Positions 22,005 through 37,481 of a DNA stretch of 64,000 bases are shown here, one piece after another (positions within the stretch are counted from its first letter, which is position 1; each line of letters opens with the position of its first letter). Source of the DNA: Flavobacterium sp. HSC-61S13. Lineage in GTDB: Bacteria; Bacteroidota; Bacteroidia; Flavobacteriales; Flavobacteriaceae. The DNA lies in assembly GCF_024171535.1 (NCBI RefSeq), contig NZ_JALJZV010000002.1, forward strand, positions 186,001-250,000, read 5' to 3'. The position numbers were made by a program, and so were the translations under genes. The notes beneath the pieces are model-generated. The model did not search any database, was not told the DNA's origin, and saw only the letters and a program-made list of their open reading frames with translations.

Positions 22005-22892
22005 TTAGTAATTCCACATATCATCTTCAAGGTTTCTAATCGATTCTTTGATTCTTTCTGCTTCAAGTAACTGTTGCATAGAGTTGTCTTTGACATAATC
22101 ATCGATACGACGGTCACCAAACATATTATCTGTTTTATAGATGCTAGCACTAAATCTACGAGAATTCAACATATGATCAAAATTGATTGAACGCATTGGA
22201 TTCTTCTCATTGAACGCATAGTTTCTATGTAGAACATTTCTTGCATCTGGGAAAAACACCCAGAACAATTCCACGTAATTTTCTTTTTCAGATCCCATGG
22301 TATAAATATCTGGAACCACTGGACAAATACCTAACAAACGGTATTTCAATTCCCCTTGAGTTCTATCGAAATACCACATTCCAACAATGTGATATTCCTT
22401 AACGTGACGTGCTTTTAGCTCTTCCTTAACGATATACTCGTCAGGAATGCGCTCTCCAGCATTGTAGTATTCACGTCCAGCATCCATAGTATCAATCTTT
22501 GTAAAGGAAGTTTCTAAATCCTTTAAAGTACGTTTTTTTGTGAAATCACTACCATCATAAACTTCTGTAATTTCACCAGATTTGATACCATCGATTAAAA
22601 CTTCATACATGGATTTACGTCCCGGCATTGCAGATTCATCAACCGGATAATAGTAAGGTAGATTCATTTTCTCATCTAAAGAGATTACTTCCCATACCTT
22701 TTTTCCAAATAAAATATCGCGGTCAGAGACATATCCGTAAGGAATTGGGCCTTCGCTGTCCACAATAATATCTGCAAAAGTTTTCAATCCAATTTCTTCA
22801 GCCGATCTTGCGTTAAGCAAGTTCGCCTGTCCGTAACCAGTTACAGAGATCGCACAAAATGCGACGAATGATGATAATTTTTTCCAGTTCAT
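22005..22892 (-). CDS. gldN: Gliding motility / type IX secretion protein GldN
   Basis: GldN (PorN) is the periplasmic component that, with the lipoprotein GldK, forms rings under the outer membrane in the type IX secretion system. The 295 residues begin with a signal peptide ending near GYGQ. The mature part contains the family pattern: PYYYPVDESAMPGRKSMYEVL and, later, YHIVGMWYFDRTQGELKYRLLGI. It is the fourth gene of the conserved gldK-L-M-N order, 32 bases after gldM, and precedes a terminator. Loss of these genes in relatives abolishes secretion and gliding. Confidence 0.95.
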   Translation of the reverse strand: MNWKKLSSFVAFCAISVTGYGQANLLNARSAEEIGLKTFADIIVDSEGPIPYGYVSDRDILFGKKVWEVISLDEKMNLPYYYPVDESAMPGRKSMYEVLIDGIKSGEITEVYDGSDFTKKRTLKDLETSFTKIDTMDAGREYYNAGERIPDEYIVKEELKARHVKEYHIVGMWYFDRTQGELKYRLLGICPVVPDIYTMGSEKENYVELFWVFFPDARNVLHRNYAFNEKNPMRSINFDHMLNSRRFSASIYKTDNMFGDRRIDDYVKDNSMQQLLEAERIKESIRNLEDDMWNY

Positions 22893-22924: not shown

Positions 22925-24484
22925 TTAATTAATCTCGAATGTACAAGGTGCCGATTTCGGCAACATATAATCACTTGATCCTTCTAGACGAACTTTAATA
23001 TCCGAAATCACTACTACATCACCCGCTCTAGCTTTTTGAATAGCAGATCTAGCTCTATCATTCATACGATTTCCTTGAACAACAACAGATGGTTGTCCTG
23101 GAACTTGTAGAACAAATCCTGTAACAGTTAAATTAAGATCGAAATCAAAGTCTTCTAATTTGGCACCGATACTAACAATTTCTAAGTTAGATTTTGGTCC
23201 TTTAGCCGAATATTCACCACGAACAGTTCCTCTTGGAGCCGGTATTCCTTTAATTCTAAATGTTTTTCTATCAGAAACCTTCTGACCGTCAGGTAAAGTA
23301 CCCGTAACGTTAATTACTACTTCTCTTCCGGCACCCGGGTTCATAATATACTGATCTGCTTTTGCTCCTTTTCTTAATCCTGGCGCAGAAGCCGTAACCT
23401 TATCAGCAGAGATTCCTGCAAATGAAATAGTCATCGGATTGGAAACTCCTCTATACACTACGTTCATTTTATCAGCAGAAATAGTAGCTGAGTTTGGTTT
23501 AGGTACCACTACATAGTTTCCATCGATTGGAATTGGAATTTCTTTTCCATCTTCCATAAATGAGAACGTTCCTGTAATTTTATGTTCACCAACATTACCC
23601 GTACCGAAAGACAAATTAACTTGTCCGTCTTCCAAAGCACTAGAAAGGTTGATTTGCGATCCATTAACAACCACCTTCGTAGGAACCGTTGATTTGTCAT
23701 AACGACCTAAAACCACTTTACCTTTAAAGCTTTCGCCTGCAAAATAAGCTGATTTTTCTGAAATCACAATAGCTTTATAATTTTTCATGGAAGCCGCTTG
23801 TGTTAAAGTGTGGCCCATAAAAGCATTGATCAATTCATTTTCTATGATTCTAACATCGTTCTGCATAGCAGTTAACTTTGTCAAGGAAGCTACAGCCGGG
23901 AATTTTTGAAAATGATAGTTCAAGTAAGGTTTAACCACTTTTTCACTATCCTTTACGTCTTTTAAATCAAAGCGGCTGTCTAAATCTTGTAAAATAGGCA
24001 AATATTTCACATCACTACCAACAGCTTGTCTGATATCTGCTTTATACTTGGTGATTGTAGCGACAATTTCTTCTCCTTTTTGAGAATACTTATCACCTAC
24101 GAACCACTCCGAATCCACTACTTCCCCTTTATCCATCGCCTCATAAGGCAATCCCCCGTCTTCTTTTTTCTTAACTGGTTCTTTTATCGATGATTTTAAA
24201 GCTTCAATGTAATTGTAAAAATTTCTTGAAATTGCATCAATAGCCTTAGCTCTTTTACTTGGATCAGCATATCTTGTAGGATCATCTGACGCTTTTATAT
24301 CTAAAGCTTGTAATAGGGTTTCATTACTATCTTCAACGGCTTTATTTGCAAATTCAAATTTTTCGTTCATCATCCCAAAAGCGGATAAGACCTCAGGTGA
24401 AATACTTAGCGCCATCATTGCGATGAAAACCAAATACATCAAGTTGATCATTTTCTGCCTAGGGGTTTGTTTTCCTCCTGCCAT
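22925..24484 (-). CDS. gldM: Gliding motility / type IX secretion protein GldM
   Basis: GldM (PorM) is anchored in the inner membrane and spans the periplasm. With GldL it forms the motor that couples proton flow to secretion and gliding. The 519-residue product has a short cytoplasmic start (MAGGKQTPRQKM), one membrane helix at about residues 12-32, then a helical domain and several beta domains in the periplasm. Length and layout match the family. It follows gldL by 35 bases and precedes gldN by 32, consistent with one transcript. Confidence 0.95.
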   Translation of the reverse strand: MAGGKQTPRQKMINLMYLVFIAMMALSISPEVLSAFGMMNEKFEFANKAVEDSNETLLQALDIKASDDPTRYADPSKRAKAIDAISRNFYNYIEALKSSIKEPVKKKEDGGLPYEAMDKGEVVDSEWFVGDKYSQKGEEIVATITKYKADIRQAVGSDVKYLPILQDLDSRFDLKDVKDSEKVVKPYLNYHFQKFPAVASLTKLTAMQNDVRIIENELINAFMGHTLTQAASMKNYKAIVISEKSAYFAGESFKGKVVLGRYDKSTVPTKVVVNGSQINLSSALEDGQVNLSFGTGNVGEHKITGTFSFMEDGKEIPIPIDGNYVVVPKPNSATISADKMNVVYRGVSNPMTISFAGISADKVTASAPGLRKGAKADQYIMNPGAGREVVINVTGTLPDGQKVSDRKTFRIKGIPAPRGTVRGEYSAKGPKSNLEIVSIGAKLEDFDFDLNLTVTGFVLQVPGQPSVVVQGNRMNDRARSAIQKARAGDVVVISDIKVRLEGSSDYMLPKSAPCTFEIN

Positions 24485-24519: not shown

Positions 24520-25197
24520 CTAATTAGCATTTCTTGATCCACCTCCCATAGCAGAAAGCATTCCACCATAAACGGTATTTAATGATGCTAAATTTGATGT
24601 TAAAGATTGCATTTGCTCTTTTAACTTCATGTTGTTTTCAGCTACTTCGTTATTGATTTCTGCATTTCTAGAGGCGCTTTCCAATTGGATTTTATACATC
24701 CCATTTAAAGATTCCAATTGAGTAGATGCCAAAGACATTTCGTCAGCATATTTTCTAGTAGAAGCCATAGTATCTACGGTAGGAGCAATTTCCTTAGCCG
24801 CAGCCTCAAAGTTTCTAATGCTTTTATTTAAACTATTCATCAGTTCCCCATCAATCTTAGCATCTTTTAAAAGTTGATCTAATTTTTGAGAAAGCATCCC
24901 TTCTTCTTGTGTAGCAACACCACCAAAACCTGTTCCACCGAAACCAGCAACTTGCACTGATTTAGCTTCACCACCTTTTAATTCTGGATATACTTTTGAC
25001 CAATCCAATTCATCATCTACCGGTTCGAAAGCTGAGATCGCAAAAATCAATGCCTCTACTACAAGTCCAATGGTCAACATATTATTTCCATTTAAAGGGC
25101 CAAATTCCATATGAGTAATTTTGAATAAAGCTCCGAGAATTACGACCGCTGCCCCCATCCCGTAGCAGAAGTTCATCACTTTTTTAGGTATCGCCAT
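24520..25197 (-). CDS. gldL: Gliding motility / type IX secretion protein GldL
   Basis: GldL (PorL) is the inner-membrane motor subunit. Its 225 residues include two closely spaced membrane helices (about 9-26 and 40-57) and a long helical cytoplasmic part (about 100-225). The membrane helices carry Lys26 and Glu48. Charged residues at such positions are known in GldL to be needed for using the proton gradient. The arrangement gldK, gldL, gldM with gaps of 65 and 35 bases is the standard order in Flavobacteria. Confidence 0.95.
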   Translation of the reverse strand: MAIPKKVMNFCYGMGAAVVILGALFKITHMEFGPLNGNNMLTIGLVVEALIFAISAFEPVDDELDWSKVYPELKGGEAKSVQVAGFGGTGFGGVATQEEGMLSQKLDQLLKDAKIDGELMNSLNKSIRNFEAAAKEIAPTVDTMASTRKYADEMSLASTQLESLNGMYKIQLESASRNAEINNEVAENNMKLKEQMQSLTSNLASLNTVYGGMLSAMGGGSRNAN

Positions 25198-25262: not shown

Positions 25263-26657
25263 TTATCTAGCTCCTTTTGGTGCATCAACAACGTTTGGAC
25301 CCGAATAGGTTTGAACCGTACGGAAGCCGATATAGCTTCTTGCAGTATCCGCAAATTCAGAATCTCTCGTACTCACTTGTAAGAAATAAGCAGGATCTCT
25401 CCATGAACCACCTCTAACAACTTTTAAAGGGTTAGATGAACCTCTTTCTCTTGGCTTTAACGAAGACACGAAATCATATGAAGCTGGGTCATAAGATGAA
25501 CTTGTCCATTCAGACACGTTACCAGCCATATTGTATAAGTTATAACCATTCGGTAGGTATGATCTCGCCTCAGCTGTATACAAAGCTCCATCGGCTGCAT
25601 AATTTGTTCTTGTCGGCTTAAAGTTCGCTAAGAAACAAGCTTTCTCATCCGTCGTATAAGGACCTCCCCATGGATACATCGCAGATTCTAAACCACCTCT
25701 TGCTGCATACTCCCACTCTGCTTCCATTGGCAAACGGTAAGCATTAACTTGATGAGATTCTCTTCTGGCTTTTAAATGAGAATTTTTATATAAAGTTCTC
25801 CAAGCACAGAATGCTTTAGCTTGATGCCAGCTTACTCCAACAACAGGATATTCTCCATAAGCCGCATGCCAAAAATAATCGTTGTGCATAGGCTCGTTGT
25901 AAGAAAACTGAAATTCTTTAATCCAACGTGTAGTATCTGGATAAATTAAAATCGTTTCCGACTTCATGTGTTTACTTCTCTTCTCTCTTAGATTCGTACT
26001 TTTATCTCTAACCGCCGCATCAATATCCATATAAGAATATTTGAATGAAAGTTTCGATACATCAAAAGTTTTTAATCCATTGAAAGATTCGCTAGCTGGT
26101 AAATAAAGTGAATCCATTACCTCAACAAAATATTCATCTGGATATTTTTTTGAACCGATTGGCAATCTCGCCTTTTTGTTCAATTTTCTGCCTGCGTATA
26201 AATCATCATCCATAGACATGCTATAGTAATTATCATACATATACTTTTCGTATGGAGTTTGGTTTTCTGGATCACCTTCTTCCAAGAAAGCGTATTCACC
26301 AATTCCTCCTGATCCTTTAGCCATTCCCATCTCATCAGCAAAAATTGCCAATCGTGTTCTAACTACCGAATCTTTTACCCATTCAACAAATTTTCGATAC
26401 TGATTATTCGTGATTTCCGTTTCATCCATATAAAATGAACCAACTGTAACAGATTTCGTAGGGGCATCTTGAGTGTTTAAGAAATCTTCGCTAGATTTCC
26501 CCATCGTAAAGGTACCTCCTGGAATCAAAGCCATACCATGAGGCTTCTCTGTTTTCCACTGTCTACCTTGTACTCCACCTAATAGCTCACCTCTATCGCC
26601 AGAACCACAACTGAATAACATTGATACAACTGCTGTTAGTGTAATGAACTTCTTCAT
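25263..26657 (-). CDS. gldK: Type IX secretion lipoprotein GldK
   Basis: GldK (PorK) is an outer-membrane lipoprotein that builds the periplasmic ring with GldN. The 464 residues start with a lipoprotein signal whose lipobox ends LFSC (Cys17). The mature part has a formylglycine-generating-enzyme-like fold, seen in GGTFTMGKS, AYRLPMEAEWEYAARGG, NVSEWTSSSYDP and VVRGGSWRDP. This fold is structural in GldK. A 129-base gap separates it from the arginase-like gene upstream, so a separate promoter is possible. Confidence 0.96.
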   Translation of the reverse strand: MKKFITLTAVVSMLFSCGSGDRGELLGGVQGRQWKTEKPHGMALIPGGTFTMGKSSEDFLNTQDAPTKSVTVGSFYMDETEITNNQYRKFVEWVKDSVVRTRLAIFADEMGMAKGSGGIGEYAFLEEGDPENQTPYEKYMYDNYYSMSMDDDLYAGRKLNKKARLPIGSKKYPDEYFVEVMDSLYLPASESFNGLKTFDVSKLSFKYSYMDIDAAVRDKSTNLREKRSKHMKSETILIYPDTTRWIKEFQFSYNEPMHNDYFWHAAYGEYPVVGVSWHQAKAFCAWRTLYKNSHLKARRESHQVNAYRLPMEAEWEYAARGGLESAMYPWGGPYTTDEKACFLANFKPTRTNYAADGALYTAEARSYLPNGYNLYNMAGNVSEWTSSSYDPASYDFVSSLKPRERGSSNPLKVVRGGSWRDPAYFLQVSTRDSEFADTARSYIGFRTVQTYSGPNVVDAPKGAR

Positions 26658-26786
26658 ATATTTTTGGGTTTATAATATTTTAATATTTCAAAGGCGTAAA
26701 CCTATTTATTTATTTTTAATTACACAACGAAAATCGGAAAAAAAATTAATTTATATTTAACATTTAATTCTTTTCGGCTTCTTTTG

Positions 26787-27938
26787 TTAAAGAAAACTCT
26801 TTTTAATCGCTTTCCACCAACGCTCAGGCACTTGCTGTGCAGTGGCTAATAGATAATCTTCGTAGCTACATGGTAAGAGTGACTTTCTTTTTATAGAATC
26901 ATTAACAGTTCCCCCAAAAGACACTTCAATCCACCATCTCTCTGTTTTATCACTCTTAAAAAAGATTAAATCGTCTTCATCGACCAGCGGAACGATGTAT
27001 TTAAAGTAACTTTCTTTACTTACAAACGGATATTCATTCGCTCTAAAGTTGAAACCTTCGACAAAATACCACAGGATCTGTGCTACTAATAACGCTTCTC
27101 CAATAGAATTATTATGATTAAAAACACCAAAAGAACTTACGCGATCGCTCAAACCAGAATAACGCGATAGGGCACAAATTTCGCGTCCGTCAAATCCATT
27201 GGGATTAAAATAGTCGAAATTACCAGAATCGGCAGATTTTACAGCCGTCATATCGATACTGACCAGATCGGCATCTCGCAATACGGGTTCGGACAATTTA
27301 CTGTCATTAGCAATTTCTCCAACTCGGTACGCTTCAAAATACAATTTATCGATCAAATCGATTTCTTCCTGCGAATTAAAATAGGTTTGATAACCCAAAT
27401 TGGAATAATTAAATAAATTATTCGGAGCCTCCATGATGATTCGGGATAAAAAAGATTCAGCCGGAAAACTATCCTCTTTGACCAAATCCAATTTATTATC
27501 AATACAAACCAAATTGACCATTTGTTCTAATTGATCGTAAGCGCGATACATCGGATAGGTCAAATCTTGAGATCCACCAATTACTATCGGTACTATTTTA
27601 TGACGGATCAACTCGGCAATCAAATTTTTCAACACAAAATAAGTGTCTTCTAAATTTTCCCCGGGTAATACATCACCGAAATCGATCATCTTAGCCGTCC
27701 AGTTGCCCGGAAAAAGCGAATAGAATGCTTTTCTTACCTCCGCGATCTCCGACCAATCATTACCATCGCTTTGACCACGGTTATCCAATACACCGATTAT
27801 TGCGATTTGATAATTTGAAAACGATTCAAATGTCCCACCCGAAAAAAAACTTACTTTTTTTCCGAGTGCTTGTCTGGATAATCCATCGATGAATTGTAAA
27901 AAATCATCGCTTAAGGGTCTTAAAAACTCAAAAGTCAT
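26787..27938 (-). CDS. Arginase-fold protein with degenerate metal site
   Basis: The 383 residues show the overall order of the arginase/formimidoylglutamase family. At the places where binuclear manganese ligands are expected, three are replaced. GGDHS is here GGSQD (Gln124 for His). The DAHxD block is DNKLD (147-151, Lys149 for His). The SxDxD block is SIDMT (227-231, Thr231 for Asp). Catalysis by the usual mechanism is therefore unlikely. It starts five bases after topA and precedes gldK, a position I recall as conserved in Flavobacteria. It is often labelled formimidoylglutamase, but the sequence argues for a non-catalytic role. Confidence 0.75.
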   Translation of the reverse strand: MTFEFLRPLSDDFLQFIDGLSRQALGKKVSFFSGGTFESFSNYQIAIIGVLDNRGQSDGNDWSEIAEVRKAFYSLFPGNWTAKMIDFGDVLPGENLEDTYFVLKNLIAELIRHKIVPIVIGGSQDLTYPMYRAYDQLEQMVNLVCIDNKLDLVKEDSFPAESFLSRIIMEAPNNLFNYSNLGYQTYFNSQEEIDLIDKLYFEAYRVGEIANDSKLSEPVLRDADLVSIDMTAVKSADSGNFDYFNPNGFDGREICALSRYSGLSDRVSSFGVFNHNNSIGEALLVAQILWYFVEGFNFRANEYPFVSKESYFKYIVPLVDEDDLIFFKSDKTERWWIEVSFGGTVNDSIKRKSLLPCSYEDYLLATAQQVPERWWKAIKKSFL

Positions 27939-27943
27939 GATGC

Positions 27944-30472
27944 TTATTTTTTAGTTGTTGTCTTCTTTGCCGGTGCTTTTTTGGCTGTAGCCTTTTTAGC
28001 AACTGTTTTCTTTGCCGCTGTTTTTTTAGCAGGAGCCTTTTTCTCTATCATTTCTTGAACTTCCTCTAATGTCAAGGCAGCAGCATCGACCTCTTTGCTC
28101 AATTCAATTTTCAACTTGCCTTTTAGGATCACAGAACGTCCCCATCGGGCTTTTTCTACTCGAATTCCCTCTTCTTTCCAATCGTGAACAACCTTGTCGA
28201 TATCCTTCTGGATTTTGTCAGAAATCAATTCTTCTATATCTGATTTAGACAGATTGTCAAAATCGTATTTCTTATTTACATTGATAAAAAGTCCGTACCA
28301 CTTTAAGTACGGTCCAAAACGCCCCACCCCTTTTTGTACAGGTAAATCCTGATAAGTCGCAATGGGCGCATCAGCTACTTCTTTTTCTTTGATCAATTCC
28401 GTGGCACGCTCCAAACTCACATCTAAAGGATCCTCTCCCCTAGGCAATGAGATAAACACCGCACCGTGACGCACATAAGGCCCAAAACGACCGTTATTCA
28501 CTTCAACTTCTTCACCTTTATACTCCCCTAACATCTTAGGCAATAAAAACAAGGTCAATGCCTCCTCTAAGGTAATTGTTCCAATATTTTGATCGGGTTT
28601 TAAACTAGCGAATTGCTTTTGCTCATCATCGGCATCACCGATTTGCGCAATCGGTCCGAATTTACCTAAACGAACCAAAACCGGTTTCCCAGATTGCGGA
28701 TCGGTTCCCAATATACGTTCACCTGATTCGCGTTCTGCGTTTTCCTCTACATCACGTACTATTGGATGAAAATGATTATAAAAATCTTGCATCATCATGG
28801 CCCAGTCTTCATTTCCGGCCGCAATTTCATCAAAATCTTGCTCTACCTTCGCCGTAAAATTATAGTCTAAAATAGTCCCAAAGTTCTTCACCAAGAAATC
28901 ATTGACGATAATTCCGATATCGGTTGGCAATAGTTTTCCCTTTTCAGAACCCACTTTTTCAATTAAATCAGAAGAAGTAACAGTCCCGTTTTTTAACACC
29001 AACATTTGGTAAGGTCTTTCTTTTCCTTCAGAAATACCCTTTTCGACATAGGTTCTGGCGATAATCGTAGAGATTGTCGGTGCATATGTTGACGGTCTTC
29101 CTATACCCAACTCTTCTAGTTTTTTAACCAACGAAGCCTCTGTATAACGAGACGCTGGTCTAGAAAAACGCTGTGTAGCCGTAATATAATTATTGAGTAG
29201 GACCTCATTGATTTTTAAAGCAGGCAAAATACCTTCTACCTCTTCCTCTTCATCATCATGTCCTTCTAAATATACTTTTAAGAACCCTTCAAACAACAAG
29301 ACCTCACCTGTAGCACTAAAAAGCTCTTTATATTGATTGGATTCAATTTTCACTACAGTTCGCTCTAAACGCGCATCGCTCATTTGTGAAGCCAAGGTAC
29401 GTTTCCAGATCAAGTCATATAAACGCGCTTGATCTCTGTCAATATTGGCATGGTGCAAAGACATATCCGTGGGACGAATAGCCTCGTGAGCCTCTTGAGC
29501 TCCTTTACTTTTGGTGATATATGTTTGTGGCTTGCTGTATTCCGCTCCATAAGATTTTGTGATTTCGGCCGCCGCTGCTTTCATCGCATCTTGCGACAAA
29601 TTCACACTGTCCGTTCTCATATAGGTGATCAATCCGCTTTCATACAGGCGTTGAGCCAACATCATGGTTTGACCAACGGTATAATGCAATTTCCTAGCGG
29701 CTTCTTGCTGAAGTGTCGATGTTGTAAAGGGTGCAGCTGGAGACTTTTTGGCCGGTTTGGTTTCTAAGTCAGCCACTTTATATTTAGCTCCAATATTTTT
29801 ATTTAAAAAATCTTGTGCTTCCTTTAAGGTAGTAAAATTTTTAGGCAGTTTAGCTTTTAATGTTTTACCCGCTTCATTAGAAAATTCTGCAGTAATACTA
29901 AAAGATGCTTCCGCATTAAAATTATTAATCTCTCTTTCGCGTTCTACTATTAATCGTACAGAAACGGATTGTACCCGTCCTGCTGAAAGTCCTCCTTTAA
30001 CTTTTTTCCACAAAACAGGAGATAATTCATAACCCACTAAACGATCTAGAACCCGTCGGGCTTGCTGTGCATTAACCAGATTGTAATCGATCTTTCGTGG
30101 ATTTTCAATCGCCTTATGAATGGCGGTTTTGGTAATCTCATGAAATACAATTCGTTTCGTTTTCTCTTCTGTCAAATTTAATTCTTCTGCTAAATGCCAA
30201 GCAATAGCCTCACCCTCACGATCCTCATCAGAAGCCAACCAAACCATTTCTGCTTTTTTAGAAAGATCTTTCAGTTTCTTAACCACCGCCTTTTTATCTG
30301 GAGAGACTTCATATTTGGGTTTAAATCCATTTTCGATATCTACTCCTATTTCTTTAGACGGAAGGTCAGCAATATGTCCATAACTGGATTCAACTTGAAA
30401 ATCTTTACCCAAAAACTTTTCTATGGTTTTCGCTTTCGCAGGGGACTCCACTATCACTAAATTCTTTGCCAT
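27944..30472 (-). CDS. topA: DNA topoisomerase I
   Basis: Type IA topoisomerase that relaxes negative supercoils. The 842 residues have an N-terminal Toprim domain (MAKNLVIVESPAKAKTIEKF; DEDREGEAIAWHL) and the active-site tyrosine in ITYMRTDS. The C-terminal half has repeated GRFGPYV-type motifs (IGDADDEQ region, NNGRFGPYV, GVGRFGPYL), which replace the zinc ribbons of E. coli TopA. The last about 30 residues are a Lys/Ala/Pro-rich histone H1-like tail (repeats of AKK and PAKK), probably for non-specific DNA binding. It heads the leftward block that includes the gld genes. Confidence 0.97.
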   Translation of the reverse strand: MAKNLVIVESPAKAKTIEKFLGKDFQVESSYGHIADLPSKEIGVDIENGFKPKYEVSPDKKAVVKKLKDLSKKAEMVWLASDEDREGEAIAWHLAEELNLTEEKTKRIVFHEITKTAIHKAIENPRKIDYNLVNAQQARRVLDRLVGYELSPVLWKKVKGGLSAGRVQSVSVRLIVEREREINNFNAEASFSITAEFSNEAGKTLKAKLPKNFTTLKEAQDFLNKNIGAKYKVADLETKPAKKSPAAPFTTSTLQQEAARKLHYTVGQTMMLAQRLYESGLITYMRTDSVNLSQDAMKAAAAEITKSYGAEYSKPQTYITKSKGAQEAHEAIRPTDMSLHHANIDRDQARLYDLIWKRTLASQMSDARLERTVVKIESNQYKELFSATGEVLLFEGFLKVYLEGHDDEEEEVEGILPALKINEVLLNNYITATQRFSRPASRYTEASLVKKLEELGIGRPSTYAPTISTIIARTYVEKGISEGKERPYQMLVLKNGTVTSSDLIEKVGSEKGKLLPTDIGIIVNDFLVKNFGTILDYNFTAKVEQDFDEIAAGNEDWAMMMQDFYNHFHPIVRDVEENAERESGERILGTDPQSGKPVLVRLGKFGPIAQIGDADDEQKQFASLKPDQNIGTITLEEALTLFLLPKMLGEYKGEEVEVNNGRFGPYVRHGAVFISLPRGEDPLDVSLERATELIKEKEVADAPIATYQDLPVQKGVGRFGPYLKWYGLFINVNKKYDFDNLSKSDIEELISDKIQKDIDKVVHDWKEEGIRVEKARWGRSVILKGKLKIELSKEVDAAALTLEEVQEMIEKKAPAKKTAAKKTVAKKATAKKAPAKKTTTKK

Positions 30473-30823: not shown

Positions 30824-32272
30824 ATGGAAAAGGTAATTGAGGAAACTAAGCAAGGAACTTCCCTTGTTTTAGAACATAAAGCAGGAAATACTAAGAAACT
30901 TTTTATTGAGAGTTATGGATGTGCTATGAATTTTTCAGACAGTGAAATTGTAGCGTCTATACTTGCCAATGAAGGCTTTAATACCACTCAAATTTTAGAA
31001 GAGGCTGATTTGGTCTTGGTAAACACTTGTTCTATTCGAGACAAGGCAGAGCAGACGGTTCGAAAACGCCTTGAGAAATACAATGCCGTAAAGAAAATCA
31101 ACCCCGGAATGAAAGTAGGCGTTTTAGGCTGTATGGCAGAACGTTTAAAGAATCAATTCTTAGAGGAAGAGAAAATAGTAGATATGGTTGTAGGACCAGA
31201 TGCCTACAAAGATTTACCCAATTTATTAAAAGAAGTTGAAGAAGGTCGCGATGCTATTAATGTAATTTTATCTAAAGACGAGACCTATGGCGACATTTCA
31301 CCGGTTCGTTTACTCAGTAATGGTGTAACCGCTTTTGTTTCTATCACAAGAGGGTGTGACAATATGTGTACTTTCTGTGTGGTTCCTTTTACTAGAGGCC
31401 GCGAACGCAGTAGAGATCCACAAAGTATTTTGGAAGAAATAGCGGATTTATCTGAGCGAGGTTTTAAAGAGGTTACGCTATTAGGACAAAATGTAGATAG
31501 TTTTCTGTGGTACGGTGGTGGTCTAAAAAAGGACTTTGTCAAAGCCAGCGAAATGCAAAAGGCTACAGCAGTTGATTTTGCTCAACTACTAGAAATGTGT
31601 GCAGTGGCTTATCCAAAAATCCGTTTCCGATTCTCCACTTCCAATCCCCAAGATATGCACGAAGAGGTTTTTCACGTGATTGCGAAACACCATAATGTAT
31701 GCAATTACATTCACTTGCCTGTTCAATCGGGTAGTACGAGAATCTTAAAAGAGATGAATCGTCAACACACTCGAGAAGAATACATGAAATTGATCGATAG
31801 AATCCACGAGATCATCGAGGATTGTTCCATCTCACACGATATTATTACCGGATTCCCTACCGAAACAGAAGAAGACCATCAAGATACCTTGAGCTTGTTA
31901 AAATATGTCAATTATGATTTCGGTTATATGTTTGCTTATTCTGAAAGACCGGGTACATTGGCCGCTCGTAAATTAGAAGACGACATTCCAGAGGAAGTTA
32001 AGAAAAGACGTCTTCAAGAGATCGTCGACTTACAACAAGAAATCAGTTTAACTAGAACCGCTCGTTTTATTGGTCAAACTGTCGAAGTATTAATAGAGAA
32101 ATCCTCTAAAAAATCCGATGCGCATTGGTCAGGAAGAAATTCGCAAAACACGACGGTTGTTTTCCCTAAAGAACAGTACCAAGTAGGAGAATTCGTTATG
32201 GTAAAAATAAACGACTGTACCTCTGCCACACTGATCGGTGAGGCTGTAGAATACAGTTCGATTATGCAATAA
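30824..32272 (+). CDS. miaB: tRNA methylthiotransferase MiaB
   Basis: Radical-SAM enzyme that adds a methylthio group to isopentenyladenosine-37 of tRNAs reading U-starting codons. The 482 residues contain an N-terminal UPF0004 domain with the cluster cysteines (ESYGCAMNFSDSE, VNTCSIRDKAE, GVLGCMAERL), then the radical-SAM motif CDNMCTFC, and a C-terminal TRAM domain (about 410-475). It has a good promoter and is the first of five closely spaced rightward genes ending with secG. The following gene begins 40 bases later. Confidence 0.97.
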   Translation: MEKVIEETKQGTSLVLEHKAGNTKKLFIESYGCAMNFSDSEIVASILANEGFNTTQILEEADLVLVNTCSIRDKAEQTVRKRLEKYNAVKKINPGMKVGVLGCMAERLKNQFLEEEKIVDMVVGPDAYKDLPNLLKEVEEGRDAINVILSKDETYGDISPVRLLSNGVTAFVSITRGCDNMCTFCVVPFTRGRERSRDPQSILEEIADLSERGFKEVTLLGQNVDSFLWYGGGLKKDFVKASEMQKATAVDFAQLLEMCAVAYPKIRFRFSTSNPQDMHEEVFHVIAKHHNVCNYIHLPVQSGSTRILKEMNRQHTREEYMKLIDRIHEIIEDCSISHDIITGFPTETEEDHQDTLSLLKYVNYDFGYMFAYSERPGTLAARKLEDDIPEEVKKRRLQEIVDLQQEISLTRTARFIGQTVEVLIEKSSKKSDAHWSGRNSQNTTVVFPKEQYQVGEFVMVKINDCTSATLIGEAVEYSSIMQ

Positions 32273-32312
32273 TACCCATTAATAATTACTAACTTTCTTA
32301 TACTACACACTC

Positions 32313-33599
32313 ATGGAAAGCATACAAGCCATAAAACAACGCTTTGAAATTATCGGAAACGATCCCAAATTGAATCGGGCCATTGAAAAAGCGATTCAAG
32401 TTGCCCCAACGGATATTTCGGTTTTAGTCACAGGGGAGAGCGGTGTAGGAAAAGAGAGTATTCCGAAAATTATTCATGCTTTATCGCATCGAAAACACGG
32501 AAAATATATAGCTGTAAACTGTGGAGCAATTCCAGAAGGCACTATAGACAGTGAATTATTCGGTCATGAGAAAGGCGCTTTTACCGGTGCCATAGGAACG
32601 AGAGAGGGATATTTTGAAGTTGCTGATGGGGGTACTATTTTCTTAGATGAAGTCGGTGAACTTCCCTTGACAACTCAGGTTCGCTTGTTGCGTGTATTAG
32701 AAAACGGTGAATTCATAAAAGTAGGATCTTCTAAAGTTCAAAAAACCGATATCCGCATTATCGCTGCAACCAACGTCAAGATGGTCGAAGCGATAGAAAA
32801 AGGAAAATTCAGAGAAGATTTATACTATCGTTTAAGTACTGTTGAAATACTACTGCCCCCCTTAAGAGAGCGCGGAGATGATATTCATCTCTTGTTTCGG
32901 AAGTTTGCTGCCGATTTTGCGCATAAATACAAAATGCCTCCGATTCGATTAGACGAACAGGCTGCTCAGTATTTGATCCGTTTTCGTTGGGATGGAAACA
33001 TCCGTCAATTGAGAAACGTCGCTGAACAAATCTCCGTTTTGGAAACAGAAAGAGTCATCACTCTTGCTGTTTTGCAAGGATATCTACCAACCAATCACAA
33101 GAATCAATTACCGAGTATCGTTGGCGGAAAAAAAACGGAGGGAGAATTTAGCAACGAACGCGAAATTCTTTATAAGGTTCTTTTCGACATGAAAAACGAC
33201 TTAAACGACCTTAAAAAACTGACTTTAGAGTTGATGAAAAACGATAGTGCTGTTAAGGTACAAGAAACCAATAAAAACTTGATTCAACGCATCTATGGAC
33301 AACATGAGGAGCCACAAACCAACAGTCCTAGCACTTATCCGTCAGAGCAGCATGTTCAGATGTTGCCCTTGGAAAAACACAATAAAGAAGACAGTTTCAA
33401 CGAGCTTGAAGATGAAGATGAACATTATCTTTTAGCCGAAACCGTCGAAGAAGAAGAAACCTTACGCCTCGATGAGAAAGAAATTGAATTGATTAAAAAA
33501 GCCCTCGAACGCAATCACGGTAAGCGAAAAGCAGCTGCAGATGAGCTTGGAATTTCCGAAAGGACATTATATAGAAAAATAAAACAATACGATTTATAA
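32313..33599 (+). CDS. Sigma-54-dependent transcriptional activator, no receiver domain
   Basis: AAA+ activator of RNA polymerase holding sigma-54. The 428 residues start directly with the ATPase domain: Walker A GESGVGKES (41-49), the sigma-54 contact loop GAFTGA (88-93), and Walker B FLDEVGE (110-116). An acidic linker at about 280-385 precedes a Fis-type helix-turn-helix (KRKAAADELGISERTLYRKI) at the C-terminus. There is no N-terminal receiver, GAF or PAS domain, so control must come through expression or a partner protein, as in PspF-type activators. It sits 40 bases after miaB and 10 before lptE, an order common in Flavobacteria. Confidence 0.93.
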   Translation: MESIQAIKQRFEIIGNDPKLNRAIEKAIQVAPTDISVLVTGESGVGKESIPKIIHALSHRKHGKYIAVNCGAIPEGTIDSELFGHEKGAFTGAIGTREGYFEVADGGTIFLDEVGELPLTTQVRLLRVLENGEFIKVGSSKVQKTDIRIIAATNVKMVEAIEKGKFREDLYYRLSTVEILLPPLRERGDDIHLLFRKFAADFAHKYKMPPIRLDEQAAQYLIRFRWDGNIRQLRNVAEQISVLETERVITLAVLQGYLPTNHKNQLPSIVGGKKTEGEFSNEREILYKVLFDMKNDLNDLKKLTLELMKNDSAVKVQETNKNLIQRIYGQHEEPQTNSPSTYPSEQHVQMLPLEKHNKEDSFNELEDEDEHYLLAETVEEEETLRLDEKEIELIKKALERNHGKRKAAADELGISERTLYRKIKQYDL

Positions 33600-33609
33600 A
33601 ACCGTAACC

Positions 33610-34113
33610 ATGAAAATAAAAAGCCTATTTCTATTACTGTGTTGTTGTACCCTACTAAGCAGTTGCAAATATTATAACTTTACCGGAACTGGAAAAATCG
33701 ATGCCAAAACCTTTCAGGTAAATTATTTTCAAAATACCGCTGCCTTTGTTGAGCCCGGTATTGAAAGAACTTTTACCTTAGCCTTACAAGATCTCATTCA
33801 AAATCAAACGAATTTGAGTTTGACCAATAATGGAGCTGATCTCATATACGAAGGAGAAATAGTTGATTTTAGGATTTCTCCGATGACGGCAACTGCCGAT
33901 CAAAGAGCCGCTCAAAACCGATTATACATTTCAATTAATGTACGTTTTATCAACAAAAAAACACCGGAAGATGATTTTGAAAAACGTTTTTCTCACTTTG
34001 TTGATTTTCCCGGTAATGAGCAATTGGTAGGAGCCAAACTGACAACAGCTTTAGAAGAAATTTACGAGCGTATAACTCAAGATGTATTTAATGCATCACT
34101 TGCGAAATGGTAA
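33610..34113 (+). CDS. lptE: LptE-like outer-membrane lipoprotein
   Basis: LptE plugs the LptD barrel that inserts lipopolysaccharide into the outer leaflet. The 167 residues start with a lipoprotein signal (lipobox LSSC, Cys19), followed by the family hallmark KYYNFTGTGKID and a small alpha/beta domain with FRISPMTAT and a C-terminal helix. The length fits the Bacteroidota LptE family. The genes on both sides are within 15 bases, so it is co-transcribed with the sigma-54 activator and with secG. Confidence 0.88.
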   Translation: MKIKSLFLLLCCCTLLSSCKYYNFTGTGKIDAKTFQVNYFQNTAAFVEPGIERTFTLALQDLIQNQTNLSLTNNGADLIYEGEIVDFRISPMTATADQRAAQNRLYISINVRFINKKTPEDDFEKRFSHFVDFPGNEQLVGAKLTTALEEIYERITQDVFNASLAKW

Positions 34114-34128
34114 CTAAAACCCGGTATT

Positions 34129-34983
34129 TTGAACACAATTGAACTACATAACTTACTACATCATCCTGAAAAGATGGATCCAGAGAAGACTGTGCAATTA
34201 GAAGAAATCGCACGAGAATTTCCCTATTTTCAATCGATTAAAGTGCTAGTACTAAAAGGTCTTTATACCCAAAAGAGTTTTCGTTACAATTCAGAACTGA
34301 AAAAAACGGCTGCTTATACCACAGATCGGGATGTTCTTTTTGATTTTATTGTGTCCGATCAATTTGTCGGATACAAACCCCTTGATCTAGCCCTACCGCA
34401 AGAGCAAGATCCTATAGAGGCGAAAGCGACCGCAACCGCTGAGTCGCCAAAGACAACTCCTTTGGTAGCATCGTTACTAAAAACCATTATCCAAACAGAA
34501 GCAGAAGCCCCAGAAGTCCCACCTTCCATTCATCCTATTGCTACTATGGAGGTCGTAGAGGAATTAGAAGAAAAGCTCGAAATTGGCAAGCCTTTATCGT
34601 TTGGATCTGATGAAAAATATTCGTTTCAAGAATGGCTACAATTGGCAAAAACGGGTACAATTGCTCGGGAAGAGCCCCCAAAAGAGCAAATTAATGACCC
34701 TGAAAAACAAAAAAAACAAGAATTAATTAACAAATTCATCGAGTCGAATCCAAAGATTGTAGCAGTGAAGAATTCCGTTATAACTCCCGCAAATATTGAG
34801 GTTTCCAACCAAGACAACAGTTATATTATGACCGAAACCTTGGCAAAAATTTATCTGGAACAGAAAAAATATCAAAAAGCGATACAAGCTTATGAGATTT
34901 TAATTTTGAAATATCCAGAAAAAAGTAGTTTCTTTGCAGACCAAATATTAGATATAAAGTCTTTACAACAATATAATAATTAA
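34129..34983 (+). CDS. TPR-like protein of unknown role
   Basis: This 284-residue protein has no signal peptide. The N-terminal part is helical (LHHPEKMDPEKTVQLEEIAR). The middle is Pro/Glu/Thr rich and likely disordered (about 95-180). The C-terminus has a single TPR-like unit (LAKIYLEQKKYQKAIQAYEIL). I chose a TTG start at 34129: the lptE stop is in frame 18 bases upstream, no ATG lies between, and the first ATG is 15 codons in and would remove conserved-looking residues. It lies between lptE and secG in the same block. The function is not known. Confidence 0.75.
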   Translation: MNTIELHNLLHHPEKMDPEKTVQLEEIAREFPYFQSIKVLVLKGLYTQKSFRYNSELKKTAAYTTDRDVLFDFIVSDQFVGYKPLDLALPQEQDPIEAKATATAESPKTTPLVASLLKTIIQTEAEAPEVPPSIHPIATMEVVEELEEKLEIGKPLSFGSDEKYSFQEWLQLAKTGTIAREEPPKEQINDPEKQKKQELINKFIESNPKIVAVKNSVITPANIEVSNQDNSYIMTETLAKIYLEQKKYQKAIQAYEILILKYPEKSSFFADQILDIKSLQQYNN

Positions 34984-34989
34984 AAAACA

Positions 34990-35388
34990 ATGAACACATT
35001 TACAATATTTTTAGTATTAATCGCAATTGTTTGTTTATTACTAATCGTAGTTATCATGGTACAAAATCCTAAAGGAGGAGGTTTGGACTCTTCTTTCGGT
35101 GGATCAACAGTTGTTGGTGGTGTAAAGAACACAAATAACTTTTTGGACAAAAGTACTTGGGCACTTGGCGGATTATTAATCGTATTGATTTTATTATCTG
35201 GATTAAGTTTTACAGGTGGTTTTGGCGGAGATTCTAAAATTTTAGATGAGAGCGCGATATCTACTACACCTGTTACTACACCCGCTACAGCTAAGCCAAC
35301 AGAAGGAGCAGTACAAACTCCAGCAGCAGTTGCAACACCTGAAGCTAACACTACTACACCAGCAGAACAAGAAGCTCCTAAAAACTAA
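34990..35388 (+). CDS. secG: Preprotein translocase subunit SecG
   Basis: Small membrane subunit of the SecYEG channel. The 132 residues have two membrane helices (about 4-22 and 54-73) with the typical loop between, VVIMVQNPKGGGLDSSFGG. The C-terminal about 50 residues are rich in Thr, Pro, Ala and Glu, an extension often seen in Bacteroidota SecG. It starts six bases after the preceding gene and is followed by a strong terminator, so it ends the miaB block. Confidence 0.95.
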   Translation: MNTFTIFLVLIAIVCLLLIVVIMVQNPKGGGLDSSFGGSTVVGGVKNTNNFLDKSTWALGGLLIVLILLSGLSFTGGFGGDSKILDESAISTTPVTTPATAKPTEGAVQTPAAVATPEANTTTPAEQEAPKN

Positions 35389-35411
35389 GAAGCTTTTCTA
35401 TACAATATACC

Positions 35412-35444
35412 ATGCCAGCTCTGACAAGCTGGCATTTTTTTTTT
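35412..35444 (+). terminator. secG terminator
   Basis: Nine-base arms ATGCCAGCT and AGCTGGCAT around a 6-base loop, followed by a run of nine T. It ends the miaB-to-secG transcript and isolates groES. Confidence 0.93.
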
Positions 35445-35465
35445 ATAAAATGTCAGGTTTGGCCT

Positions 35466-35481
35466 TTGGCACAGTTTATGA
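35466..35481 (+). promoter_or_regulatory. Sigma-54-like promoter before groES
   Basis: TTGGCACAGTTTATGA lies 51 bases before the groES start. It matches the -24 half (TTGGCAC) fully. Ten bases after the GG comes GA where the -12 GC is expected, so spacing is exact with one base off. No TAnnTTTG box is present between the secG terminator and groES. A sigma-54 activator is encoded 1.9 kb upstream. The assignment is an inference from motif and context. Confidence 0.4.
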
Positions 35482-35532
35482 AAATTCAACCTTGGAGATA
35501 TTATAATATTAACTTCATAAAAATAAGTAATT

Positions 35533-35808
35533 ATGGCATTAAACATTAAACCCCTTTCGGATCGTGTTCTAATAGAACCTTTACCAGCTGAAACCAAAAC
35601 AGCCTCAGGAATTTTTATCCCCGATACTGCTAAAGAAAAACCACAAAGAGGTACAGTTGTGGCAGTAGGAAATGGTACAAAAGATCACGAAATGACAGTT
35701 AATGTAGGTGATACAGTTCTTTATGGAAAATACGCAGGTACCGAACTAAAATTGGATGGTAAAGACTATCTAATTATGCGTGAGGATGACATTTTAGCAA
35801 TTGTCTAA
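35533..35808 (+). CDS. groES: Co-chaperonin GroES
   Basis: The 91-residue lid of the GroEL folding chamber. The sequence has the expected start ([17 protein letters not shown]), the mobile-loop region ([20 protein letters not shown]) and the closing [16 protein letters not shown]. It lies 44 bases before groEL and forms the usual two-gene heat-shock operon. There is no CIRCE element. A sigma-54-like site upstream is listed separately. Confidence 0.98.
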
Positions 35809-35819
35809 AAAAGAGTTAA

Positions 35820-37481
<1,662 letters not shown>

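Follow-up and report, generated by a model that had tools for sequence, protein, structure and literature searches.

ARGL, a gene located in a 64,000-nucleotide stretch of the Flavobacterium sp. HSC-61S13 genome (hereafter the window), encodes an arginase-fold protein that lacks a canonical binuclear metal site. The phenomenon is much wider than this single window: it is class-wide, and not a local oddity. The protein is very probably non-catalytic. The reading that we favour, though tentatively, is that it is an arginase-fold binding protein repurposed from an enzyme. Coordinates of the gene, its neighbours and the residues discussed below are collected in Table 1.

Table 1. ARGL and surrounding features in the window
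Feature	Position	Strand	Basis
gldN	22005..22892	-	TIGR03523, 248 bits
gldM	22925..24484	-	TIGR03517, 489 bits
gldL	24520..25197	-	TIGR03513, 212 bits
gldK	25263..26657	-	TIGR03525, 553 bits
ARGL-gldK gap, 129 bases, A+T-rich	26658..26786	-	one promoter-like match
ARGL, putative arginase-fold pseudoenzyme gene, 383 aa	26787..27938	-	ORF, Pfam and predicted fold
C-terminal module, residues 301-383, ~80 residues	26790..27038	-	alignment and models
Thr231, last Asp ligand position	27246..27248	-	profile alignment; family N 80, S 69, T 39, G 20, D 6 of 240
E217-P218-x-x-R221, near-invariant family motif	27276..27290	-	family alignment
Lys149, second His ligand position	27492..27494	-	profile alignment; family K 109, R 63, Q 16, S 13, H 5 of 240
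Gln124, first His ligand position	27567..27569	-	profile alignment; family Q 195, H 17, N 11 of 240
topA, DNA topoisomerase I	27944..30472	-	NCBIfam model above cut-off
Divergent conserved block: miaB, sigma-54 activator, LptE, TPR-like, SecG-like; also groES, groEL	30824-37481	+	groES, groEL by eye

Arginase fold and metal site

ARGL scored 29.5 bits against the Pfam Arginase model PF00491 (cut-off 22), which places it in the arginase fold and family, and 40.9 bits against the hutG model TIGR01227, whose cut-off is 229.15. The latter score, so far below the threshold, agrees with the original prediction, made from the sequence alone, that the protein may not be a formimidoylglutamase. Since all 21 members of set A1 matched TIGR01227 at E<=0.01, ARGL is nevertheless regarded as a relative. 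An AlphaFold2 model built from 54 sequences had a pLDDT of 87 and a pTM of 0.89. Residues 21-300 of this model superposed on the Trypanosoma cruzi formiminoglutamase 4mxr with Z 33.7 and an rmsd of 2.3 over 273 (18% identity), and the model matched the Bacillus subtilis formimidoylglutamase 3m1r with Z 32.0. A profile of 21 relatives found the same B. subtilis and T. cruzi enzymes with E values of 3.6e-16 and 7.3e-11, respectively. The fold shared with these HutG proteins covers about residues 21-300 of ARGL, and the segment that follows the final ligand motif (K-S-x-D) can likewise be aligned with that of T. cruzi. ARGL differs from them in the replacement of the second His and the last Asp, and in carrying an extra C-terminal module.

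In the profile-to-PDB alignment the ARGL segments GGSQD, DNKLD and SIDMT pair with GGGND, DSHLD and SFDVD of the T. cruzi protein. Three of the six metal ligands (Asp147, Asp151 and Asp229) are retained, and Gln124, Lys149 and Thr231 stand in place of His, His and Asp, exactly as had been predicted; all six positions had been assigned correctly. As labels for the ligands we use H101, D124, H126, D128, D232 and D234, which we take to be the human arginase numbering. With three of the six residues, ARGL does not have the ligand set of a catalytic ureohydrolase (H, D-x-H-x-D, D-x-D). Judged by sequence and predicted fold it has instead the features of an arginase-fold pseudoenzyme, that is, the fold with the binuclear site lost, and the earlier description of an arginase-fold protein with a broken metal site is upheld by both the alignment and the model. 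Not all replacements are equally informative. The T. cruzi enzyme 4mxr itself has Asn at the first-His position (the N114H variant is 4myn), and 17 of 240 family members have His there, therefore position 124 alone is weak evidence of loss. In the sequences compared, the telling change is the combined loss of the second His and the final Asp.

Two candidate interpretations were rejected. The presence of intact ligands elsewhere in the protein was checked and ruled out by the profile alignment and the fold match, and an active formimidoylglutamase was ruled out by the ligand losses together with the HutG score.

Ligands were counted in 240 unique full-length sequences from 71 coded families (five rows of family f19 and duplicates were excluded). 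Three canonical ligands were kept in 193 sequences, four in 18, two in 11, one in 16 and none in 2; not one of the 240 had five or six. Asp was kept at positions 147, 151 and 229 in 220, 214 and 227 sequences, whereas 5 sequences had the second His and 6 the last Asp. None of 72 ARGL family representatives had these two residues together, in contrast to 21 of the 21 rows of the outgroup, which was made up of paralogs and of arginase-family rows taken from the phylum's other classes; 17 of these rows had the ligand string HDHDDD. Among the most degenerate proteins, L047 and L049 (f5) and L048 (f13) have all of Asp147, Asp151 and Asp229 replaced; position 231 is Asp in these proteins, E-P-x-x-R is retained, and gldK is absent from the fetched stretch.

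The frequent retention of the three aspartates would be consistent with ARGL still being a ureohydrolase that uses one metal bound by Asp147, Asp151 and Asp229. The near absence of the other two ligands speaks against this, as does the loss of the remaining aspartates in L047, L049 and L048, and we regard a one-metal ureohydrolase as highly improbable.

Arginase-fold pseudoenzymes are already known, and ARGL is a further variant. The T. brucei arginase-like protein is reportedly a case in which the arginase fold evolved without the manganese cluster. Its mutants (4rhm, 4rhq) were among the fold matches of ARGL, although it differs in being eukaryotic and in having no comparable gene context. 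In a Foldseek search with the ARGL model the first two rows were chains of the metformin hydrolase entry 8x3g (subunit unspecified). The metal-free subunit of metformin hydrolase, MetCb, is, like ARGL, an arginase-fold pseudoenzyme; according to PMC11271267, five of its six ligands are changed and it is required for the activity of MetCa. This is a direct precedent for the idea that ARGL is a non-catalytic subunit partnering an active arginase-family enzyme of its own cell, and the genome does encode two other arginase-family proteins with six ligands each. However, metCa and metCb are adjacent, whereas the intact genes lie on contigs other than that of ARGL, and a partner subunit of the MetCb kind seems improbable. 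ARGL further differs from MetCb in its location beside topA and gld genes and in having a C-terminal module of its own. The two intact genes, L001 and L002, are located on contigs C15 and C6; one is agmatinase-like and one hutG-like, neither scoring above its NCBIfam cut-off.

Distribution, selection and acquired residues

ARGL matches were detected in 54 of a set of 60 near relatives that includes the genome itself, in 133 genomes of the order sample (of 176) and in 353 genomes of the class sample (of 376). The last two figures are slight over-counts because the matches in G666 (1.2e-9) and G048 (3.8e-13), both without the C-terminal module, are probably ordinary arginase relatives. In a tree of the 72 representatives and the 21 outgroup rows, ARGL formed one side of a branch with an SH-aLRT of 100, and the same split received 99 when the ligand columns and the C-terminus were omitted; these were quick, unrooted trees with several long branches. 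The dN/dS ratio ranged from 0.026 to 0.094 (median 0.046) in 54 pairs: of 207 eligible pairs of equal length, the first 60 were taken, and 54 of these yielded a ratio. All come from close relatives of the window's genus, and the pairs are not independent of each other. By this sequence measure ARGL is under purifying selection.

A decaying pseudogene was ruled out by the intact reading frames and a dN/dS of about 0.05. Searches of plasmid and phage records likewise ruled out a plasmid- or phage-borne gene: 72,556 plasmid records yielded one weak match (27.5% identity over half of the protein), and 50,697 phage records yielded none.

Several residues distinguish the family from its catalytic relatives. 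Glu217 and Arg221 were found in all 240 sequences outside f19 and in 72/72 representatives. Arg205 and Pro218 were each present in 71 of the 72, Cys255 in 68 and Trp290 in all. None of these residues is conserved in the 21 outgroup rows. The C-terminal module was present in every representative and in 0/21 outgroup rows. Its near-invariant residues are Phe326, Trp335-Trp336, Cys357 and Tyr362; Cys357 occurs in 240/240 sequences outside f19. Modelled as a stand-alone polypeptide, it was predicted to form four strands and two helices (pLDDT 74.6). The module gave no Pfam match above cut-off and no convincing match in the PDB (best E 0.046 in the profile search, best E 2.0 with Foldseek, best Z 3.8 with VIA-align). 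Because the stand-alone model is only of moderate quality, a new fold is not claimed. When 35 genomes were searched for the module, it was not found in the 28 chosen for having no or weak ARGL match; the seven that matched had been included deliberately as already having an ARGL match.

Family f19 indicates which part of the protein is guarded. Three of the five f19 proteins have a shortened or scrambled N-terminal arginase half (L090, 277 aa; L122, 278 aa; L121, 335 aa), yet the C-terminal half of these three is still recognisable, and E-P-x-x-R is present in four of the five; L121 has lost this motif and part of the module. The retention of module and motif despite N-terminal decay shows that it is the C-terminal half that is guarded, and not the old active site.

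Invariance of this kind (Glu217, Arg221 and Cys357 in all 240 sequences) resembles the constraint on a functional site, and together with the mostly retained Asp147, Asp151 and Asp229 it could mean that the active site was rebuilt, with Arg205, Glu217, Arg221 and the cysteines performing a different chemistry. Against this, L047, L049 and L048 keep E-P-x-x-R after losing all three aspartates, some f19 proteins have lost much of the old pocket, and no other catalytic domain was found by Pfam or NCBIfam. A rebuilt enzyme is therefore considered unlikely.

Gene neighbourhood and type IX secretion genes

In the window ARGL begins five bases after the topA stop codon and is followed by gldK, as the original prediction had placed it. 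TopA, GldK, GldL, GldM and GldN all score above their NCBIfam cut-offs, and ARGL is thus encoded with gldKLMN, as a component of the type IX system might be. The promoter scan around the ARGL-gldK gap as a whole gave matches within chance.

The neighbourhood was compared in 115 ARGL loci from 72 families. Directly upstream of ARGL, 42 families have topA on the same strand; the fetched stretch contains gldK in 41 families and does not show it in 31, and 37 families have both. In the 80 named loci the arrangement was more uniform: gldK was in the stretch in 77 and the order topA-ARGL-gldK was found in 74, the remaining three and six loci, respectively, lying near a contig end. An absence of conserved gldK linkage in relatives had been named beforehand as a result that would speak against the original prediction; the linkage recurs in many families. 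A porP-type gene lies between ARGL and gldK in many loci, but in 0/80 named loci; the copy in L034 is PorP_SprF by Pfam. The type IX secretion review PMC5445135 describes a porPKLMN operon in which the position of porP is variable.

In 26 of the 72 families topA is not adjacent and the stretch contains neither gldK nor porP. Most of these are real separations, since 21 of the families include a locus flanked by 3 kb or more on either side. Family f103 was scored as having no adjacent topA, with topA 512 bases upstream and a stretch that stops 1.6 kb past ARGL.

Spacing separates the two neighbours. The topA-ARGL gap had a median of 15 bases (57 loci, 42 families; 36 loci within 30 bases) and of 3 bases in 77 named loci, as against a median of 126 bases from ARGL to porP or gldK (51 loci) and 243 bases to gldK (77 named loci); each frame was taken to begin at its earliest possible start codon, so that the gaps may be underestimated. 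The operon-like spacing of ARGL points to topA, not to gldK. The original prediction of an arginase-fold protein kept by secretion-motor genes is thus supported in so far as the gld linkage is recurrent, while the tightest link is to topA.

The conserved surroundings also extend beyond the gld genes. They include miaB (29 families), a sigma-54 activator (27), LptE (22), a TPR-like protein (22, below its Pfam cut-off) and a SecG-like protein (18, by eye), as determined by neighbour clustering without loci L105, L115 and L247. Guilt by association with gldK is diluted by this wider block. In many families the block is divergent from topA-ARGL-gld, and it mixes envelope biogenesis, secretion and chaperones. 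A gene for an NAD-dependent epimerase/dehydratase-like protein lies within three genes of ARGL in 11 families (e.g. L083:7102-8067); 23 of its 28 copies are directly upstream of ARGL, and in the two that were inspected (L083, L222) it is on the opposite strand.

The tiny topA-ARGL gap and the mixed content of the block are compatible with ARGL being a housekeeping or topA-coupled binding protein, topA and ARGL forming a functional pair or the block having merely stayed together. Five families with topA-ARGL and no gldK in the stretch (f5, f13, f79, f82, f89; the f13 contig stops 1.2 kb past ARGL) fit this as well. It is countered by f19, f81, f105 and f107, and by one f20 locus (L092), where gldK is in the stretch and topA is not adjacent. 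In three of the five f19 loci (L090, L121, L122) gldK and a Mur-ligase-type gene are both convergent on ARGL, with porP in two of them; this arrangement is a second, separate linkage to gldK. In f107 (L244) other genes separate ARGL from gldK and porP, which are some 4-6 kb away. On balance a general or topA-coupled role, which the retention of ARGL in genome G415 (described below) also favours, is the main rival of the secretion reading, though less likely than not.

The Mur-ligase-type gene is directly convergent with ARGL at L090:8166-9470, L121:9648-10958, L122:9813-11108 and L244:7467-8774 (f107). The L090 copy has Mur_ligase_M support from Pfam; the other three were recognised by eye.

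Co-occurrence with the secretion genes was scored in the two genome samples. In the order sample GldM was detected in 139 and ARGL in 133 of 176 genomes, and all ARGL-positive genomes have GldM. This nesting says little because, among the 20 listed of the 37 GldM-less genomes, 18 are reduced (0.3-0.6 Mb) and two fragmented. GldM without ARGL was found in six genomes (three of f9 and one each of f10, f12 and f15), or seven with G048. In the class sample, in which ARGL and GldN are both nearly ubiquitous, GldN was matched in 367 of 376 genomes (343 above cut-off), and GldN-bearing genomes with no ARGL match occurred in f24, f25, f26, f84, f108, f119 and f128.

Three genomes had ARGL and no GldN match. 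In G652 GldL and GldM are present, at a contig end. G495 is 95% complete, with ARGL at a contig end, and gave no match for GldL, GldM, GldN or SprA. G415 (f17, locus L218) is 99% complete and has an intact ARGL, with no match for GldL, GldM or GldN. The lack of an SprA match in G415 says nothing about loss of secretion because no SprA match was obtained either in its relative G061, where GldL and GldM are present. G415 provides a natural test of the independence of ARGL from the secretion system.

A component of the type IX system should be present if and only if the system is present, and ARGL does not follow this rule. It is dispensable for some type IX systems and seems not to be strictly tied to one. 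The secretion link of the original prediction is weakened to this extent, by several GldM- or GldN-containing lineages without ARGL and by G415.

Possible function of ARGL

The loss of the metal site, the new C-terminal tail and the strong selection in most of the class make a new, non-enzymatic job probable. As the sequences show, the metal site decayed in one lineage of the class while the gene was retained under purifying selection, and this lineage acquired Arg205, Glu217-Pro218-x-x-Arg221, Trp290 and the C-terminal module. In the reading that we tentatively favour, the protein was repurposed for a binding or regulatory role; the structural, regulatory and ligand-sensing roles named in the original prediction are all conceivable. 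The protein is presumably cytosolic because no signal peptide was seen by eye. It would lack ureohydrolysis; E-P-x-x-R and the C-terminal module would form a surface for a protein partner or a small ligand, and the old catalytic half would serve as a scaffold.

The leading guess for the partner is the type IX/gliding machinery, either its cytosolic motor end or the expression of its operon, because ARGL lies in or beside the gld block in most families examined. A direct role in secretion is plausible, but less likely than not, and is held with less confidence than the binding function itself. A more specific proposal, that ARGL is a class-wide cytosolic regulator or assembly factor of type IX secretion and gliding, whose dead pocket perhaps senses a nitrogen metabolite, is conceivable at about the same level. 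A model for such a soluble factor is offered by PorX and PorX_Fj, for which binding to PorL or action on the type IX motor is reported. The likeness is one of mode of action; PorX is a response regulator, and no kinship in sequence or fold is claimed.

No description of ARGL beside gldK was found in the literature searched, which included few subscription journals. The words arginase and formiminoglutamase are absent from PMC5445135, as far as its available part goes, and the accessible portions of PMC11271267, PMC10936215, PMC12635249 and PMC8986121 contain no description of ARGL. The co-occurring words in the accessible text of PMC9169529, PMC4755523 and PMC12147357 are unrelated (a biochemical test strip, a transposon cargo gene and reference lists).

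If these conclusions are correct, a protein that matches formimidoylglutamase or arginase best would, in most of a bacterial class, be no enzyme of this kind, and a gene that is among the most frequent neighbours of the type IX motor genes would have been overlooked so far. ARGL would then represent a clean bacterial case of evolution from enzyme to binder, with catalytic outgroups intact.
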